A DNA stretch of 47,949 nt from Nitrospirota bacterium. Lineage in GTDB: Bacteria; Nitrospirota; Thermodesulfovibrionia; UBA6902. Every line of letters starts with the position of its first letter. The stretch's first letter is position 1. A program made the position numbers and the translations under genes. A model generated the notes under the pieces. That model had not been told where the DNA came from and searched no databases. It saw only the letters and a program-made list of their open reading frames with translations. Below, piece by piece: positions 19,762 to 27,276 of the stretch. The stretch spans positions 1-47,949 of the forward strand of contig JACRMS010000001.1 of assembly GCA_016214845.1 (NCBI GenBank). The letters run 5' to 3'.

Positions 19762-20268
19762 ATGAAAACAAGGTTTATGTTCTTAATCAGTCTTCTGTTA
19801 ATAGCGGCGAGCATAACATATGCGGCTCAAAAGGCTGTGCAGCCTGCCCCGAACGGAATTACGATGCCTGAGGGTTACAAAGACTGGCGGATCATTGCCC
19901 CGTCTCACCGCAGTGATAACAACACTATCAGGGTTGTCCTTGGAAATAATACAGCGATACAGGCGGCAAGGGAAGGAAAGACCAATCCCTGGCCGGATGG
20001 AACGGTCTTTGCAAAACTTGTATGGAAAAATAAGACCCACGAGAACTGGCCCACCGCGACAATCCCCGGAGAATTCGTCCACGCGGAATTTATGATAAAG
20101 GATTCCAAAAAATATCCTGCAACAGGCGGCTGGGGTTTTGCCCGCTGGCTCGGCATGGAGCAAAAGCCTTATGGCAAGGACGCCAACTTTGTGCAGGAGT
20201 GCTTCGGCTGTCACACGCCGGTGAAGGACAATGATTATGTGTTTACCCATCCGGCAGTGATGCCGTAA
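19762..20268 (+). CDS. Cytochrome P460 family protein
   Basis: About 168 residues with a Sec signal peptide (MKTRFMFLISLLLIAASI, cleavage near TYAAQ) and one c-type heme site CFGCH near the C-terminus. The blocks MPEGYKDWRII, NNTIRVVLGN, WPDGTVFAKLVWK and GGWGFARWLG match the P460 fold, periplasmic cytochromes that include hydroxylamine and NO-detoxifying members. A GTG lies 6 bp upstream in frame, but AGGAGG at 19749-19754 is 7 nt from the ATG at 19762. It is monocistronic, flanked by repeat B and convergent hflX. The crosslinking Lys and real substrate cannot be decided here. Confidence 0.85.
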   Translation: MKTRFMFLISLLLIAASITYAAQKAVQPAPNGITMPEGYKDWRIIAPSHRSDNNTIRVVLGNNTAIQAAREGKTNPWPDGTVFAKLVWKNKTHENWPTATIPGEFVHAEFMIKDSKKYPATGGWGFARWLGMEQKPYGKDANFVQECFGCHTPVKDNDYVFTHPAVMP

Positions 20269-20282
20269 AGTACGGAAGTGCT

Positions 20283-21911
20283 TTACAGCGGCCAGAGTTT
20301 ATTCTCTATCGCAGCCATGAGCTTGTGAAATGTTTCCGGTTTTTTGGCTGAGATGGAAATACCGCCGAACCGTTTGCAAACATTTTCGACTACTTCCCTG
20401 TTCACCAGGTCCTCTTTGTTGAAGGCCAGCAACTGCGGTTTTTGTGAAACACCCAGATCGCTGAGTATCTTGTCCACGGATTTCATGTGCTGTTCAAAGC
20501 GAGGGTTCGATACGTCAACAACATGAAGAAGCAGGTCCGCGTCTTCAAGTTCTTCAAGGGTGGACCGGAAAGCAGAGAACAGGTCCTTCGGCAGGTCCCG
20601 GATGAAACCGACAGTATCGGTGATGATCACGTCTCTTTCTTTTGGGAACCTGAGCCTCCTGCTTGATGTGTCGAGTGTCGCAAACATCTTGTCTTCAACA
20701 AACGTCGCGCTTTTTGTGAGGTTGTTGAGCAGCGTTGATTTCCCTGCATTTGTATAACCGATAATTGAAATTATCGGAAGCCCAAGCTCAACCCTGCGCG
20801 ACTTCCTCTGCTGCCTTGCGCGGCTCAGGGATTCAAGCTGTTTTTCAAGCAGGGTTATCCTGTCTCTTACCCTTCTTCTGTCAACTTCAAGCTTCATTTC
20901 ACCAGGGCCTCTTCCGCCGATGCCGCCCATTAAGCGGGACATCGCGGTCCCTTTACCGGTAAGCCTCGGAAGCCTGTAGCTCAATTGCGCAAGCTCGACC
21001 TGCACCTTTCCGTCCCTGCTGTGCGCGCGCCGGGCAAAAATATCGAGGATGAGCTGTGAACGGTCAATGACCTTCAGCTCCGTCAGATCACCTATCGCTT
21101 TAATTTGTGAAGGATTCAGGTCCTGATCAAAGATCAACAGCGTTGCGCCCTTATTCAATGCATTTATCACCAGGTCTTTTATCTTTCCCTGGCCCATGAG
21201 AAACTTAGGGTTGATCTCCTTCGGTTTCTGTAGCACGGTGTCGAGGACAACGACATTGCTTGAATCCGCAAGCTCCTTCAGTTCTTCCATTGATTCTTCC
21301 TGCGCGTGCCTCGGCCCTGTTGATACGCTTACAAGGATCGCGCGCTCACGCTTGTCTTTTACATCAAACCCTTTTCTCTGGGATTGCAGGCTGTCCTCGG
21401 TTGCCGAGACCATCACATCAAAGTCTTCAAAGGCGGTCTCGATCCTTTGAAAAGGGAAAGGCCCTTTTATTTCATATGATGTTTTTGCATCGGTTGAGAA
21501 AAGATGAGCAAGTGAAACATTGTCAGGCTGTCCGTCCTTTAATCCAATGACGATAAGAGCGTCAAGCCTCAGGAGTGAAAGGTCTGTAATGTCATCCTGA
21601 TTTATCGCCTCGCTCTTAAGGTGTGTATGGATCAGCCTGAGGCCGCGGAGGACCTTTCTGCCGAGGGGATGATTTTCAAGTTCGGGAATAAATATCCCCC
21701 TTGCATCACCCACGATCACATGATGTATATCTCCGTCCCTGTCAGCAAGCACCCCGATCTGCCGCCCAATCGCGTCAGACCATTCAGCCATGTACCTTGC
21801 GAGCTCAGCAGTCAGCGCCTTGTCTTTTGGAATACGCCTCCTGTAGATTTTCTCAAGCGCCTTGATCTCGCTTCCCTTTAAGCCTGAGATGTTACCGTGA
21901 ACAGATGGGAT
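20283..21911 (-). CDS. hflX: GTPase HflX, apparently starting at a non-standard codon
   Basis: HflX is a ribosome-associated GTPase that splits stalled or heat-damaged ribosomes. The protein has the HflX N-terminal domain (LDTVLQKPKEINPKFLMGQGK, GGRGPGEMKLE, coiled helix), then the G domain: G1 GYTNAGKSTL, G2/G3 TLDTSSRRL and DTVGFIRDLP, G4 FNKEDL. The first in-frame ATG is 21791, but 40 more in-frame codons upstream (HGNISGLKGSEIKALEKIYR, then RRIPKDKALTAELARYM) look like the usual HflX N-terminus. They begin at an ATC (21911-21909) placed 5 nt after GGAGG; an in-frame TAA lies further upstream and no ATG, GTG or TTG intervenes. Confidence 0.9.
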   Translation of the reverse strand: MPSVHGNISGLKGSEIKALEKIYRRRIPKDKALTAELARYMAEWSDAIGRQIGVLADRDGDIHHVIVGDARGIFIPELENHPLGRKVLRGLRLIHTHLKSEAINQDDITDLSLLRLDALIVIGLKDGQPDNVSLAHLFSTDAKTSYEIKGPFPFQRIETAFEDFDVMVSATEDSLQSQRKGFDVKDKRERAILVSVSTGPRHAQEESMEELKELADSSNVVVLDTVLQKPKEINPKFLMGQGKIKDLVINALNKGATLLIFDQDLNPSQIKAIGDLTELKVIDRSQLILDIFARRAHSRDGKVQVELAQLSYRLPRLTGKGTAMSRLMGGIGGRGPGEMKLEVDRRRVRDRITLLEKQLESLSRARQQRKSRRVELGLPIISIIGYTNAGKSTLLNNLTKSATFVEDKMFATLDTSSRRLRFPKERDVIITDTVGFIRDLPKDLFSAFRSTLEELEDADLLLHVVDVSNPRFEQHMKSVDKILSDLGVSQKPQLLAFNKEDLVNREVVENVCKRFGGISISAKKPETFHKLMAAIENKLWPL

Positions 21912-22056
21912 GATGACCTCCGTGATAAAGTTTTATTTGTAATTATAACAAAAGGGGAGAATGGGGGTATTATCTCTTTAATTCACTTTTTAATACAGGA
22001 AGTGTCCCTGCTGGTTTCTTATTAGCCAACCGAGATAATCATATTGTATTTGTCCC

Positions 22057-23139
22057 TTAACCATGTCCCTTAATGTCCCTTATCTTTTCTGAAATTGCTG
22101 GAGAAAGCAGATAATGCGTGCCCTTCTTTTCACCCTGTTTTACCAGCAGCTTTTTTTCAACGAGACCGGTCAAGTCACGCGTTGACGTTCTTTTTATGCT
22201 ATTGCAAAGAGACTGGCATTGCTCATTATCAATTTGATCATTAATGACTAAATATCTAATGATTTTGTCCTGCCTCGGATTCAAACCATAAGCGGCAAAC
22301 TCTTTAAGAACTTTTTCAGAAATGATGACCCTTTTACCCTTTTCCTGAATTTCCGTCATCTGTGAGCGCAAGCCGGTCACAAAATATTCAAGCCAGCCGG
22401 TCATGTCCATATCATTGTTGCTGACCGACTGAATGGCCTTATAGTAGGCCGGCCTGTCTTTGTCGTAATATTCGGAAATGCTGAACAGCCGTTTGAAGTC
22501 GTACCCCGTTTTGTAGAGAACAAGAGTGGACAGAAGTCTCGCAGTTCTTCCGTTGCCGTCAATGAACGGATGAATATGGACAAACTGAAATTGCGCGATT
22601 CCTGCAAGAAGAACGGAAGGAAGTTCTTCTGCCCCGTTGAGCCAATTTACAAATTTCCGCATTAGATGCGGTACTTCAAGAGGTGAGGGAGGCGTATAAA
22701 TGATCTCGCGGGTTCTGGAGTTGGCAACGTAGTTTTGAATCGTTCGATAATTGCCGGGGTCCGCCTTCTCGCCGCGCACGCCTTTGACCGTAACCTTGTG
22801 AAGCTCCCTGATAATGCCTTCGGTAATCGGGTCTTCCTTTCCAAGATATTTCGATATGAAATCCATAGCTTTTTTATAATTCAAAAGCTCCTTTTCATCG
22901 TCACGATTAATGCCCTTAAGCTTTTTGCCTTCAAGAATGTTTTGGGCCTGTTCAAGGCTTAATGCCGTGCCCTCGATATGAGTGGAATGGTGGGACTCAA
23001 GGATAAGGGCTTCTTTCTGCATGTCGGCAATCCATTCGTCCTTGAGCTTGACCGCGTCAAGAAAACCGCGAACGCGCTCGATTTCAACAAGGGCCTTGTT
23101 GATCTTGGGTGTTATTGTGAATTTCGGATTAAACGGCAT
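22057..23139 (-). CDS. Fic domain protein with N-terminal inhibitory helix and C-terminal winged helix
   Basis: A 360-residue Fic protein, likely an AMP-transferase for a protein substrate. The active motif is complete: HPFIDGNGRTAR, His190 to Arg201. The autoinhibitory motif (S/T)xxxE(G/N) is present near the N-terminus as STHIEG (Ser52, Glu56, Gly57), making it a class II, self-inhibited Fic. Residues 285-350 look like a winged-helix domain (RQDKIIRYLV, SIKRTSTRDLTGLVEKKLL). This layout is widespread in bacteria and often mobile. It stands next to a Bro-N gene, with no separate antitoxin visible. Confidence 0.92.
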   Translation of the reverse strand: MPFNPKFTITPKINKALVEIERVRGFLDAVKLKDEWIADMQKEALILESHHSTHIEGTALSLEQAQNILEGKKLKGINRDDEKELLNYKKAMDFISKYLGKEDPITEGIIRELHKVTVKGVRGEKADPGNYRTIQNYVANSRTREIIYTPPSPLEVPHLMRKFVNWLNGAEELPSVLLAGIAQFQFVHIHPFIDGNGRTARLLSTLVLYKTGYDFKRLFSISEYYDKDRPAYYKAIQSVSNNDMDMTGWLEYFVTGLRSQMTEIQEKGKRVIISEKVLKEFAAYGLNPRQDKIIRYLVINDQIDNEQCQSLCNSIKRTSTRDLTGLVEKKLLVKQGEKKGTHYLLSPAISEKIRDIKGHG

Positions 23140-23593
23140 TGTTTAATTCCCGCCCTCTTTCCTCAATGACGAGGTTGCGTTTTAATCGCCAACTCGTTTG
23201 AGGGTGCCGGATATTGCGGCCTTTTTCCATTACCGTTATTTTATTCCTTCTTCTATTTTGTATGACATAGTAATTTCATAGATGCTTATTCAGTATCAAT
23301 TTTTCTTTTAATCCATTGGGGTAGATGAAAGATAATTTCTTCCTTTCAAAAATTGGAGTTGCTTTATGTATAACCCGATAAAGCTAAATCAACCTTTGCC
23401 GGTTGTTGTCCACTTTTAATTTCGTCCAACTTGCCAAAGGGAAGACCTTCAAGTTCTTCAAGAACATCCTCAATTTCTCAAAGAGTTTTGATTTCCGACA
23501 ATTTTACTTTAAAAGTGATAAAAGTTTAAAGCTCGGCTTTGATAAGCTTCTGAAGCCTCTCGATTTAGTGTTTGCACCATATAAATATTCCTT
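23140..23593. other. 454-bp gap with a possible gene remnant
   Basis: No intact gene is seen. On the minus strand, about 23364-23480, a frame reads EIEDVLEELEGLPFGKLDEI and continues KSGQQPAKVDLALSGYT to a stop. It is preceded in the same frame by an internal TGA and by a short MVQTLNREASEAYQSR-like peptide in another frame. This could be a decayed small gene, perhaps an antitoxin-like protein near Fic, but it is too short for assignment. Confidence 0.3.
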
Positions 23594-24427
23594 CTACCCC
23601 TTAATCCTTCTTTTCTCGCTCACACTTAATTCCTTGAAATTCTCACTTGAAACAACTTTTTTGCCTGAGCGTTTCTCAATATCTTTCCTGGTCCTGCCCG
23701 CTACCGCCCCGCCGTCCTTAGCATCTTTTTTCAGCGGGACAAAACCCTTTGAGTCTCTGTCCCTCGTCAGTTTTGTTGTAGTAGCCTCGGCAAGCATCGT
23801 AAGAATAAGTTCGATGTCGTTCATGTGGTCCCGCAGGTTTTCTCTTTCAAGGTTCTTGAGCTTCTTGTATTCCTCAACCTTAAGATCAAATGTCCCCTGC
23901 ATGATCTCATTAGTCAGGATTGCGAATTCCCTTTCCGTCTGGACTCCCCTGTTGTTCCACTCTCCTGTAAGGCCCTGGCGAACAGCGATCCCGCGCAGCC
24001 TTTTGTCAATCCAGTCTTTGGGATAACCCTTTTTCTCATAAAGCTCCTTCATCCTCTCCATTGCCAGTTGAGGGTCTTCGATCTCGTCAATCCTTTCCTT
24101 TCCAACTTTTGCCAGCCAGCGTTTCAACGGTTCAACTCTTGGAGAAGGAATTGACTGGATGACACGAAACATGGTTTCGGTATTGGCGCAATCGGTTAGG
24201 CGCATCTTGCCGTCAGGAGCAGCCATTTTCAAGTGTACGATTTTTTCGTACGTTTCGTTAAACCCCTCATTAACAAGCTTTCTTTTAAGATCGCTCCAGT
24301 ATCGCTTGGGAATACTGCTGTCAGTTAAAACCTCGATAACATCAATGATCGAAAACCACCACTCATTGTTATGGATGGTTTTTCTGATCCTTTTCCCTTC
24401 AAAGATAGTTAGCTTGTTTTCTTCCAT
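23594..24427 (-). CDS. Bro-N domain (phage antirepressor-like) protein
   Basis: 277 residues. The N-terminal segment (KLTIFEGKRIRKTIHNNEWW, FSIIDVIEVLTDS, YWSDLKRKL, GKMRLTDCANTETMFRVIQS, IPSPRVEPLKRWLAKVG) is the Bro-N fold found in viral and prophage antirepressors and in many stand-alone bacterial genes. The C-terminal half is charged and helical (DWIDKRLRGIAVRQGLTGEW, LTNEIMQGTFDLKVEEYKKL) and ends in a very basic tail, so nucleic-acid binding is likely. A strong GGAGG site precedes the ATG. No other phage gene is nearby. Confidence 0.8.
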   Translation of the reverse strand: MEENKLTIFEGKRIRKTIHNNEWWFSIIDVIEVLTDSSIPKRYWSDLKRKLVNEGFNETYEKIVHLKMAAPDGKMRLTDCANTETMFRVIQSIPSPRVEPLKRWLAKVGKERIDEIEDPQLAMERMKELYEKKGYPKDWIDKRLRGIAVRQGLTGEWNNRGVQTEREFAILTNEIMQGTFDLKVEEYKKLKNLERENLRDHMNDIELILTMLAEATTTKLTRDRDSKGFVPLKKDAKDGGAVAGRTRKDIEKRSGKKVVSSENFKELSVSEKRRIKG

Positions 24428-24624
24428 ATGTCCCCCCTCCTTTGAAATTATACTTGGATGTTCAATTATACAATATAAGCAGAATTGCCTGATAATAAAT
24501 TTGGCTTAAACTTAAAGGGAATTAACATAGATTCCCGCTTACGACATGCCAACAACAGGTGCTTTAGGCACGGGAATGACGACCCCTGTTTTTCTATGCT
24601 TTCTACTAACTACCGGCTACCATC

Positions 24625-27276
24625 TCAGTGCGCCCCGGCCCAGTTTTTCCCGATACCGATGTCTACTTTAATGGGGACGTCGAGCTTGACTGCGTTTTCC
24701 ATTTCTTCTTTAACGAGCGGCATGATTATATCTTTCTCGCCTTCCGGTACTTCAAATAATAATTCATCATGGACCTGAAGGAGCATCCTTGTTTTGAGAT
24801 TTTCCTTTTTCAATCTCCGCCAAATGTTCAGCATCGATATTTTAATTATATCAGCGGCGGAGCCTTGCACCGGGGTGTTGATTGCAAGCCTCTCGCCAAG
24901 CTGTCTTGTATTTTTGTTTGAGCTCTTGAGTTCCGGTATCGCCCTTTTCCTATTGAACATTGTCGCAACGAATCCCGTCCCGGTTGCCTGCCCGATTGTT
25001 TTGTCCATATACTCTTTGACACCGCCGTGTTTTGCAAAGAAGGTATCTATGTAATCCCTTGATTCATCCGGCGGGATCCCAAGCTGCTTGCTCAATCCGA
25101 ACGGGCTGATACCGTAGACAATGCCGAAGTTCACTGTCTTTGCGCGCCTTCTCATTTCAACTGTAACCTCATTGGCTGAACAACCGAATAGTTCTATCGC
25201 GGTCCTTGTGTGAATGTCGCCGTCATGCTGAAAGACCTCGATAAAGCCTTTGTCCCGGCTCAAATGCGCAAGCACGCGAAGCTCTATCTGCGAGTAGTCG
25301 GAAGAAAGAAGCAGGAAACCCTCTTCTGCTATAAAGGCCTCCCGTATCTTTGTGCCCCATTCACCCCTGATCGGGATGTTCTGGAGGTTCGGGTCAGAGC
25401 TGCTCAGCCTTCCGGTTGCGGTAATTGTCTGATTGAATGATGTGTGGAGCCTGCCTGTCTTTGGATTTACCAGCTTCGGAAGCGCGTCAACGTATGTGTT
25501 CTGGAGCTTTGACAATCCTCGGTATTCAATGATCTCTTTAGGAAGTTCATGCTCAAGCGCAAGCTGCTCAAGCACATCAATGTCTGTTGAATATCCTGTC
25601 TTGGTTTTTCTAAGGGTCCGCAGGCCGAGCTTTTCAAACAGAATCTCCTGAAGCTGCTTCGGCGAGTTGATATTGAATTCTTCGCCCGCGATAAAATAAA
25701 TCCTCTTTTCAATGCTCGCAAGCTCCTGCGTCAGTTTTCTGGAAAAGGTATCCATCAAGGGGACATCGATCTTCACGCCAGCCATTTCCATGTCAGCAAG
25801 GACTTCAACCAAAGGCATTTCTATCTCATGAAATAATTTTGCAAGGCCCTCTATTTCAATCTTCGGCCCAAGATGGCTTTTCAATTTCAAAGTAACAGCA
25901 GAGTCTTCGCCTGAGTATTTTGCTGCGCTTTCTACTGAGACTTCCCTGAAATTAAGTTTGCCTTTATCGGTGACATCATTAAATAAAAGTTTTTTGATGC
26001 CGAGATATTCCATGCAGACGTCTTCGAGTCCATGATTTGTCTTGTTTGGATTCAAAAGATAAGAGGCGAGCATGGTGTCAAAGTTAATTCCCTGTAAATT
26101 CATTCCCTCATTTTTCAAAATGATGAAGTCGTATTTAATGTTGTGACCGGTCTTTTTAATCTCAGGGCTTTCAAGAATCGGTTTCAACTTCCCTAACACA
26201 TATTCTTTAGATAGTTGTTCCGGCACGCCAAGATATGAATGGGCCAGCGGGACGTAAAAAGCTTTCTCAGGATGTATAGAAAAAGATATGCCGACAAGCT
26301 CCGCTGTAACCGGCGACTTGGAGGTCGTCTCGGTATCAATTGTTACCTCATCTTTTATTAATGAGAGAGCGTCTTCAAGGGTGTTTTTATCAAGGACAGT
26401 GATATATTCCGTTTTATCATCAGCGGATGTCTCCGGAACGAGCTTTATCAGACTGCTGAACTCGAACCTGCGGAAATACTCCATTAACTTTGCCCATTCC
26501 GGTTCACCGGGTTTCAGGTCTTTGACCTTTACATCAAGAGGAACGTCAGGATGGATCGTTGCGAGCTCTTTGCTGAGCTTAATGTTCTCAATATTGTCAG
26601 ACACGGCTTTTTGCGCCTTGGCGTTTTTGATTTTGGAACGGTTTTGCAGGAGGTTGTCGAGGCTGCCGAATTCCTGCAAAAGCTTTACAGCGGTTTTTTC
26701 TCCGATGCCGGGGGCGCCTGGAATATTGTCTGACGTGTCTCCCATGAGGGCGATGATCTCAGGAAAGCGGGACGGCTCAACGCCAAAGCGTTCAAGGACG
26801 TCTTTCTCCTCAGTGATCTTCTCCTTCATGGTGTCATACAATTTGATCTTCGGGCTTACCACCTGACACATGTCCTTGTCTCCCGTGACGATAAAGACAT
26901 CAAGCCCTTCCGCCTCTGCCTCTTTTGCAAGAACGCCCAATATGTCATCGGCCTCGTAACCGGGCTTTTCAATCGTCAGAATATTAAAAGCATCGATTAT
27001 CTCCTTGATCAACGGGACCTGCTGCCTGAGTTCATCCGGCATTCCCGGACGGTGTGCTTTGTACGCCTCGTATGCTGCGTGTCTCGTGGTCGGGTGCGGC
27101 GTGTCAAATACTATCGCAAAATAATCAGGGTTTTTCTCTCTCAATATCTTTAATATCATGTTGGTGAAACCGTAAATCGCGTTGGTGGGAAAGCCGCTTG
27201 AATTGGACAGATTTCTGATAGCGTAGAATGCGCGGTAGAAGTAAGAATTGCCGTCAATGAGGTAGAGGGTTGGCAT
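24625..27276 (-). CDS. polA: DNA polymerase I
   Basis: 883 residues with all three Pol I domains. The 5' nuclease (1-290) shows LIDGNSYFYRAFYAI, TGDKDMCQ and GDTSDNIPGAPGIGEKTA. The 3'-5' proofreading domain (about 300-480) keeps its acidic residues (IDTETT, GHNIKYDF, YSGEDSA), so proofreading should be active. The polymerase domain has motif A SSDYSQIELRVLAHLS, motif B RRRAKTVNFGIVYGIS and motif C LQVHDELLFEVP. It fills gaps after excision repair and removes RNA primers. uvrA, the UvrD-type helicase and exonuclease III elsewhere in the window work in the same repair routes. Confidence 0.97.
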   Translation of the reverse strand: MPTLYLIDGNSYFYRAFYAIRNLSNSSGFPTNAIYGFTNMILKILREKNPDYFAIVFDTPHPTTRHAAYEAYKAHRPGMPDELRQQVPLIKEIIDAFNILTIEKPGYEADDILGVLAKEAEAEGLDVFIVTGDKDMCQVVSPKIKLYDTMKEKITEEKDVLERFGVEPSRFPEIIALMGDTSDNIPGAPGIGEKTAVKLLQEFGSLDNLLQNRSKIKNAKAQKAVSDNIENIKLSKELATIHPDVPLDVKVKDLKPGEPEWAKLMEYFRRFEFSSLIKLVPETSADDKTEYITVLDKNTLEDALSLIKDEVTIDTETTSKSPVTAELVGISFSIHPEKAFYVPLAHSYLGVPEQLSKEYVLGKLKPILESPEIKKTGHNIKYDFIILKNEGMNLQGINFDTMLASYLLNPNKTNHGLEDVCMEYLGIKKLLFNDVTDKGKLNFREVSVESAAKYSGEDSAVTLKLKSHLGPKIEIEGLAKLFHEIEMPLVEVLADMEMAGVKIDVPLMDTFSRKLTQELASIEKRIYFIAGEEFNINSPKQLQEILFEKLGLRTLRKTKTGYSTDIDVLEQLALEHELPKEIIEYRGLSKLQNTYVDALPKLVNPKTGRLHTSFNQTITATGRLSSSDPNLQNIPIRGEWGTKIREAFIAEEGFLLLSSDYSQIELRVLAHLSRDKGFIEVFQHDGDIHTRTAIELFGCSANEVTVEMRRRAKTVNFGIVYGISPFGLSKQLGIPPDESRDYIDTFFAKHGGVKEYMDKTIGQATGTGFVATMFNRKRAIPELKSSNKNTRQLGERLAINTPVQGSAADIIKISMLNIWRRLKKENLKTRMLLQVHDELLFEVPEGEKDIIMPLVKEEMENAVKLDVPIKVDIGIGKNWAGAH

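Follow-up and report, generated by a model that had tools for sequence, protein, structure and literature searches.

Where does translation of hflX begin in a genome whose hflX reading frame runs on upstream of its first ATG? The question is raised by a 47,949-nucleotide stretch of a Nitrospirota genome (hereafter the window; Table 1), in which the open reading frame from the ATG at 21791 encodes 502 amino acids and the frame extends 40 codons further to an ATC at 21911 (IPSVHGNISGLKGSEIKALEKIYRRR...). The original prediction had placed the start at this ATC, pointing to the open frame, to the lack of ATG, GTG or TTG before an in-frame TAA and to a GGAGG 5 nt before the ATC. Direct reading agreed on each count: the frame is open, the codons between the TAA (21935-21933) and the ATC are AAC TTT ATC ACG GAG GTC ATC, and the GGAGG occupies bases 21921-21917. 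A second ATC (21914) abuts the first just 2 nt past the GGAGG; relatives align to the one at 21911.

The product was identified as HflX from its match to TIGR03156 (442.3 bits, against a curated cut-off of 216.75) and from its AlphaFold2 model (mean pLDDT 81.9), which matches ribosome-bound HflX and HflXr structures (best E 2.1e-33). The HflX of E. coli splits 70S ribosomes (PMC9067457), and by family membership the protein of the window is predicted to be a 70S ribosome-splitting GTPase. It belongs to a long form of HflX with an N-terminal extension (residues 1-190) that matched no Pfam family and nothing significant among PDB sequences (one weak match, E 0.09); modeled alone from a single sequence, the extension had a mean pLDDT of 39, too poor for reading a fold. 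The extension carries a conserved IHTHL...QDDLTDL motif, which may resemble JAMM/MPN metal sites.

Table 1. Features of the hflX locus, with positions numbered along the window.
Feature	Position	Strand	Basis or remark
hflX coding region with stop codon, from AUC	20283..21911	minus	542 aa; open frame; TIGR03156 442 bits; full-length alignment with relatives
N-terminal extension of long-form HflX, residues 1-190	21342..21911	minus	no known family
First canonical ATG, start given by an NTG-limited gene caller	21789..21791	minus	judged not the main start; drops residues 1-40 (conserved, confidently modeled)
AUC start codon	21909..21911	minus	aligned codon is ATH in 140/158 Nitrospirota loci
Shine-Dalgarno GGAGG, 5 nt spacer to ATC 21911	21917..21921	minus	direct reading; match of at least 5 bases at 120/140 Nitrospirota ATH starts
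In-frame TAA closing the hflX frame upstream	21933..21935	minus	open-frame reading
Possible -10 box TATAAT, inferred leader roughly 25 nt	21942..21947	minus	read by eye
Fic-family gene (PF02661)	22057-23139	minus	between polA and hflX
Bro-N gene (PF02498)	23594-24427	minus	between polA and hflX
polA	24625-27276		

The comparison with relatives that the original prediction proposed, looking for ATG at the aligned position, returned ATC (five) or ATT (five) in the ten genomes of the window's genus. Wider sampling of the phylum gave the same picture: among 158 Nitrospirota loci, 140 carry ATT (50), ATA (50) or ATC (40), collectively ATH, and only 15 have a canonical ATG, GTG or TTG (NTG) near the aligned position, with three loci left without a call; GTG (3) and TTG (4) account for 7 of the 158 starts. 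The loci were anchored on a conserved XGN..GL motif, and an NTG within -6 to -2 codons of this motif was taken as the start unless it lacked a Shine-Dalgarno sequence and an ATH had a match of at least 5 bases. A first set used 90 of 101 genomes, mostly metagenome assemblies like the rest of the survey; the other 11 (G011, G015, G020, G027, G031, G034, G043, G044, G047, G050 and G056) were set aside, their HflX being absent, broken across contigs or frames, or of the short form. A second set contributed 68 further loci (24 of the window's class, 44 of other classes) from 195 genomes, many overlapping the first set. L033, whose sequence begins 4 bases before the start codon, was counted as ATH without a Shine-Dalgarno sequence, and L093 and L103 were counted as NTG but also carry an ATH with a weak one. 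The alternative left standing by the original prediction, that the AUC reflects an error in sequencing or assembly or a start lost in this genome alone, is the least probable reading of all: the genome of the window is a draft in 41 contigs, but the same codon class occupies the same place in all ten genus members compared and in 14 single-contig genomes.

The ATH start extends to other phyla. Among the best-scoring long-form loci, it was found in 16 of 17 from the phylum of an Acidobacteria record (best 17; 60 genomes drawn), 26 of 30 from that of a Syntrophobacterales record (best 30; 59 genomes drawn) and 18 of 30 from that of a Myxococcota record (best 30; 47 genomes drawn), which pooled gives 60 ATH and 15 NTG starts in 77 loci. 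A start-blind pattern scan of named genomes, kept separate because of possible overlap with the other genomes, yielded, among the matches listed, 80 loci from at least 118 stretches: 44 with ATH, 33 with NTG and three without a call, the latter including L254 (masked) and L268 (cut off). An earlier, simpler start rule gave 43 ATH and 34 NTG for the same matches. The Desulfobacterales among the named loci listed have mostly ATG, mostly without a Shine-Dalgarno sequence. At L440, L178 and L198 an ACG, and at L230 a CTG, takes the expected place of the start in lieu of either NTG or ATH; these are possibly other near-cognate starts. The short-form HflX of Acidobacteriota was inspected at 13 loci, 12 of them readable, and its starts were not clear-cut. 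The presence of NTG starts in all three collections (Nitrospirota, other phyla and named genomes) implies that the AUH start is dispensable in some lineages. Still, the best reading of these counts is that the non-AUG start of hflX is deeply conserved across several phyla.

Several observations distinguish a start codon from an internal isoleucine. A Shine-Dalgarno match of at least 5 bases with proper spacing precedes 74 of 81 ATH starts, but 227 of the 3200 isoleucine codons inside those frames. In Nitrospirota, 134 of the 140 ATH starts stand four codons ahead of the motif, whereas among the best long-form loci the distance is -3, -5 or -6 for 6 of the 16 ATH starts in Acidobacteriota and for 14 of the 18 in Myxococcota, and a spaced Shine-Dalgarno of at least 4 bases accompanies the ATH in 16 of 16 and 16 of 18 of them, respectively. 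The ATH thus occupies different places in different lineages, mostly moving together with the Shine-Dalgarno sequence, as expected of a start but not of a conserved isoleucine. An internal isoleucine downstream of a true NTG start would fit the 26 of 140 Nitrospirota ATH loci that have an in-frame NTG within 60 codons above the ATH (12 only beyond 25 codons, 14 nearer) and the great length of the frame in some loci (731 codons in L004). The frame contains no NTG, back to a stop or for 60 codons, in 114 of the 140, however, and a stop lies within 20 codons of the ATH in 109 (104 without an NTG between) and directly before it in six (e.g., L065). Furthermore, the frame of L214 is closed by a stop 14 codons before the motif even though those of its near relatives stay open further up. 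Along with the variable place of the ATH, these stops make an upstream NTG start very improbable.

We think it just as far-fetched that HflX starts downstream, at the ATG at 21791, and that the conserved stretch above it is untranslated. Although this ATG is the first canonical start in the frame, no downstream start is common to the relatives, in which the next NTG lies 6 to 137 codons in (median 40). Across the ten genomes of the genus, the variable columns in codons 2-40 number 16/39, 8/39 and 38/39 at the first, second and third codon positions, a pattern typical of coding sequence under purifying selection. A downstream start would also remove a strand (residues 4-6) and a helix (residues 13-24) that the model places within a block, residues 1-70, with pLDDT of 82-94. 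Translation of hflX very likely begins at AUC 21911.

Upstream of the start, a consensus scan of the minus strand found no promoter before hflX. A TANAAT sequence does, however, lie 10-45 nt before the ATH in 55 of 138 loci, whereas two control windows gave 9 and 13 of 138. No Rfam family reached its gathering score upstream of hflX (positions 20000-24700 scanned), which speaks against a structured leader RNA of a described family in this interval. The 28 bases before the start (21912-21939) are the same in L003, a 98% identical relative; higher up, its sequence diverges from the window except for one piece resembling the Fic gene. In 18 of 30 relatives, polA ends no more than 1.5 kb above hflX, which suggests that the Fic-family and Bro-N genes were inserted between polA and hflX in the lineage of the window.

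Is the codon kept as such by selection? A FastTree phylogeny was built from 172 HflX proteins (125 with ATH, 42 with NTG and five unassigned) with the start region excluded; of the Nitrospirota loci L032-L111, one in three was included. Exchange of ATH for NTG or the reverse required 15 changes on this tree, 12 of them forced by well-supported branches. Shuffling gave a mean of 37.4 changes and never a value as low as 15 (0 of 500). Because no root was inferred for the tree, gain and loss of the ATH start are indistinguishable in these counts. Within the 125 ATH rows, by contrast, ATT, ATC and ATA interchanged at least 32 times; the third base thus drifts among A, C and T but seldom to G, even though ATG makes up 892 of the 4552 internal ATN codons of the same proteins. 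The codon is coupled to its ribosome-binding site as well: Shine-Dalgarno matches of at least 5 bases precede 120 of 140 ATH but 0 of 15 NTG starts in Nitrospirota, and a match of at least 4 bases is absent at just 8 of the 140. Strong Shine-Dalgarno sequences and ATH also change in concert across the tree (median p 0.039), with a sign test that ranges from 0.004 to 0.51 depending on the pairing. Four class relatives whose hflX starts with ATG or another NTG (L095, L096, L102 and L108) have no spaced Shine-Dalgarno of at least 4 bases. The best explanation of these patterns is that selection holds the codon within AUU, AUC and AUA and away from AUG, GUG and UUG. A non-AUG start of hflX is very probably under selection, and the relatives thus lend support to the proposal in the original prediction of an AUC start of the infC kind.

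We used three other genes of the window's class as controls. The infC gene starts with ATA (24) or ATC (1) in 25 of 26 readable loci, including ATA in the genome of the window; four of its 30 loci were unread by the patterns and L351 was ambiguous (ATG beside ATC). All 28 readable obg loci (26 ATG, 2 GTG; 2 of 30 unread) and all 18 readable frr loci (ATG; 12 of 30 unread) have canonical starts. Thus, hflX has its AUH habit in common with infC but not with obg or frr, whose starts rule out a habit general to these genomes or to genes of ribosome recycling. In one genome (G051), hflX starts with ATG (L095) yet infC seems to start with ATA (L324). What the sequences show directly is the start codon, how it is conserved, its pairing with the Shine-Dalgarno sequence and the matching feature of infC.

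The shared start class suggests a shared control. Initiation at any codon but AUG, GUG and UUG is repressed by IF3, which controls infC and the Streptomyces sigR gene in this way; the repression is reported to be lost in both genes when the codon is changed to AUG (PMC5472188). Similarly, raising IF3 in vitro was described to lower the share of full-length product from an AUU paired with a CAU anticodon (PMC10158994). In hflX, the strong, well-spaced Shine-Dalgarno sequence on a seemingly short leader could aid a weak AUC start, and IF3 on the 30S subunit would reject initiator tRNA paired with AUH, as it does for infC. HflX synthesis would then be low when IF3 is in excess and rise when free 30S subunits outnumber IF3, so that hflX output would track the ratio of free 30S subunits to IF3, together with infC. 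HflX is reported to split 70S ribosomes under stress and IF3 to stop the free 30S subunits from rejoining the 50S (PMC9067457). Extensive splitting could sequester IF3 and so release both genes from repression, until IF3 recovered and shut them again; with infC of the same class also at AUH, the splitter and the anti-association factor would be derepressed and shut off together. By analogy with infC and sigR, the AUC codon may tune HflX to ribosome state, as the original prediction had supposed. We infer the repression by IF3, the direction of the response and the control shared with infC, and we lean toward IF3 gating as the reason for the AUH start. The explanation as a whole, a selected AUC start with a strong Shine-Dalgarno sequence that is gated by IF3 alongside infC, has in our estimate a probability of about 0.7.

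Its main rival is that the AUH start acts as a fixed brake that keeps HflX scarce without useful sensing of IF3. An excess of a ribosome splitter could be harmful, and a brake alone would favor AUH too. AUA and AUU starts with extended Shine-Dalgarno sequences are reported to give about 10-30% of the AUG output in S. aureus (PMC13009471), and a brake of this sort has been proposed for E. coli pcnB, whose AUU start is said to limit it (PMC1780047). However, GUG and UUG are also weaker starts, yet they are found at so few of the Nitrospirota loci; in addition, a strong Shine-Dalgarno sequence kept beside a very weak codon looks regulated rather than merely low. Neither point is decisive, and we regard a fixed brake as unlikely but worth taking seriously. 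IF3 gating, if correct, invites a broader view, to which we give even odds: an ancient start-codon regulon spanning several phyla, in which IF3 acts through the AUH starts of infC and hflX alike. Such a regulon would make the splitting and anti-association factors in step whenever 30S subunits exceed IF3, and would place HflX in a feedback loop driven by ribosome state, one that tends to be hidden by gene callers restricted to ATG, GTG and TTG.

A literature search, with most subscription journals outside its scope, found no printed report of a non-AUG hflX start; the article that matched both hflX and start-codon terms (PMC10618245) concerns, in its matching text, another protein. In the reports retrieved, few bacterial genes besides infC are described as having a near-cognate start by design, and those named are reported from narrow groups. 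With AUH starts of hflX in Nitrospirota, Acidobacteriota, the phylum of the Syntrophobacterales bacterium and Myxococcota, control through the start codon would reach beyond initiation to ribosome splitting, and IF3 control in trans becomes directly testable. As a practical matter, the N-termini of HflX proteins are likely misplaced wherever gene callers accept only ATG, GTG and TTG.

The closest known system is infC, which resembles hflX in its AUH start, strong Shine-Dalgarno sequence and wide conservation and occurs in the same class. It differs in that IF3 there acts on the gene that encodes it; HflX has no known role in start-codon choice and, for this reason, control of hflX would be in trans. 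The sigR gene of Streptomyces is also a gene other than infC with a non-canonical, group-conserved start, an extensive Shine-Dalgarno sequence and known IF3 control (PMC5472188). Its start is, however, GTC (32 of 34 in its group, with GTT in two; PMC5472188), it encodes a sigma factor in one genus, and its control by IF3 was established by experiment whereas that of hflX is proposed from sequence comparison. The ccpN (AUA) and cvfC1 (AUU) genes of S. aureus share with hflX the AUH start and extended Shine-Dalgarno sequence (PMC13009471), E. coli pcnB (AUU) shares the AUH start (PMC1780047), and lepA, with a possible AUU start, is likewise a ribosomal GTPase gene, reported in that source for two species only (PMC1780047). 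All four differ from hflX in their functions and narrower reported distribution. Lastly, the hflX genes of Bacillales and hflXr of Listeria resemble our case in that expression is thought or shown to follow ribosome state, there via a leader peptide (PMC8632094, PMC6310831). The means differ, a small leader ORF with alternative RNA structures in those genes and an unusual start codon, with no Rfam element, here. Set beside these systems, hflX appears to be a new and unusually widespread case of a near-cognate start paired with a strong Shine-Dalgarno sequence.
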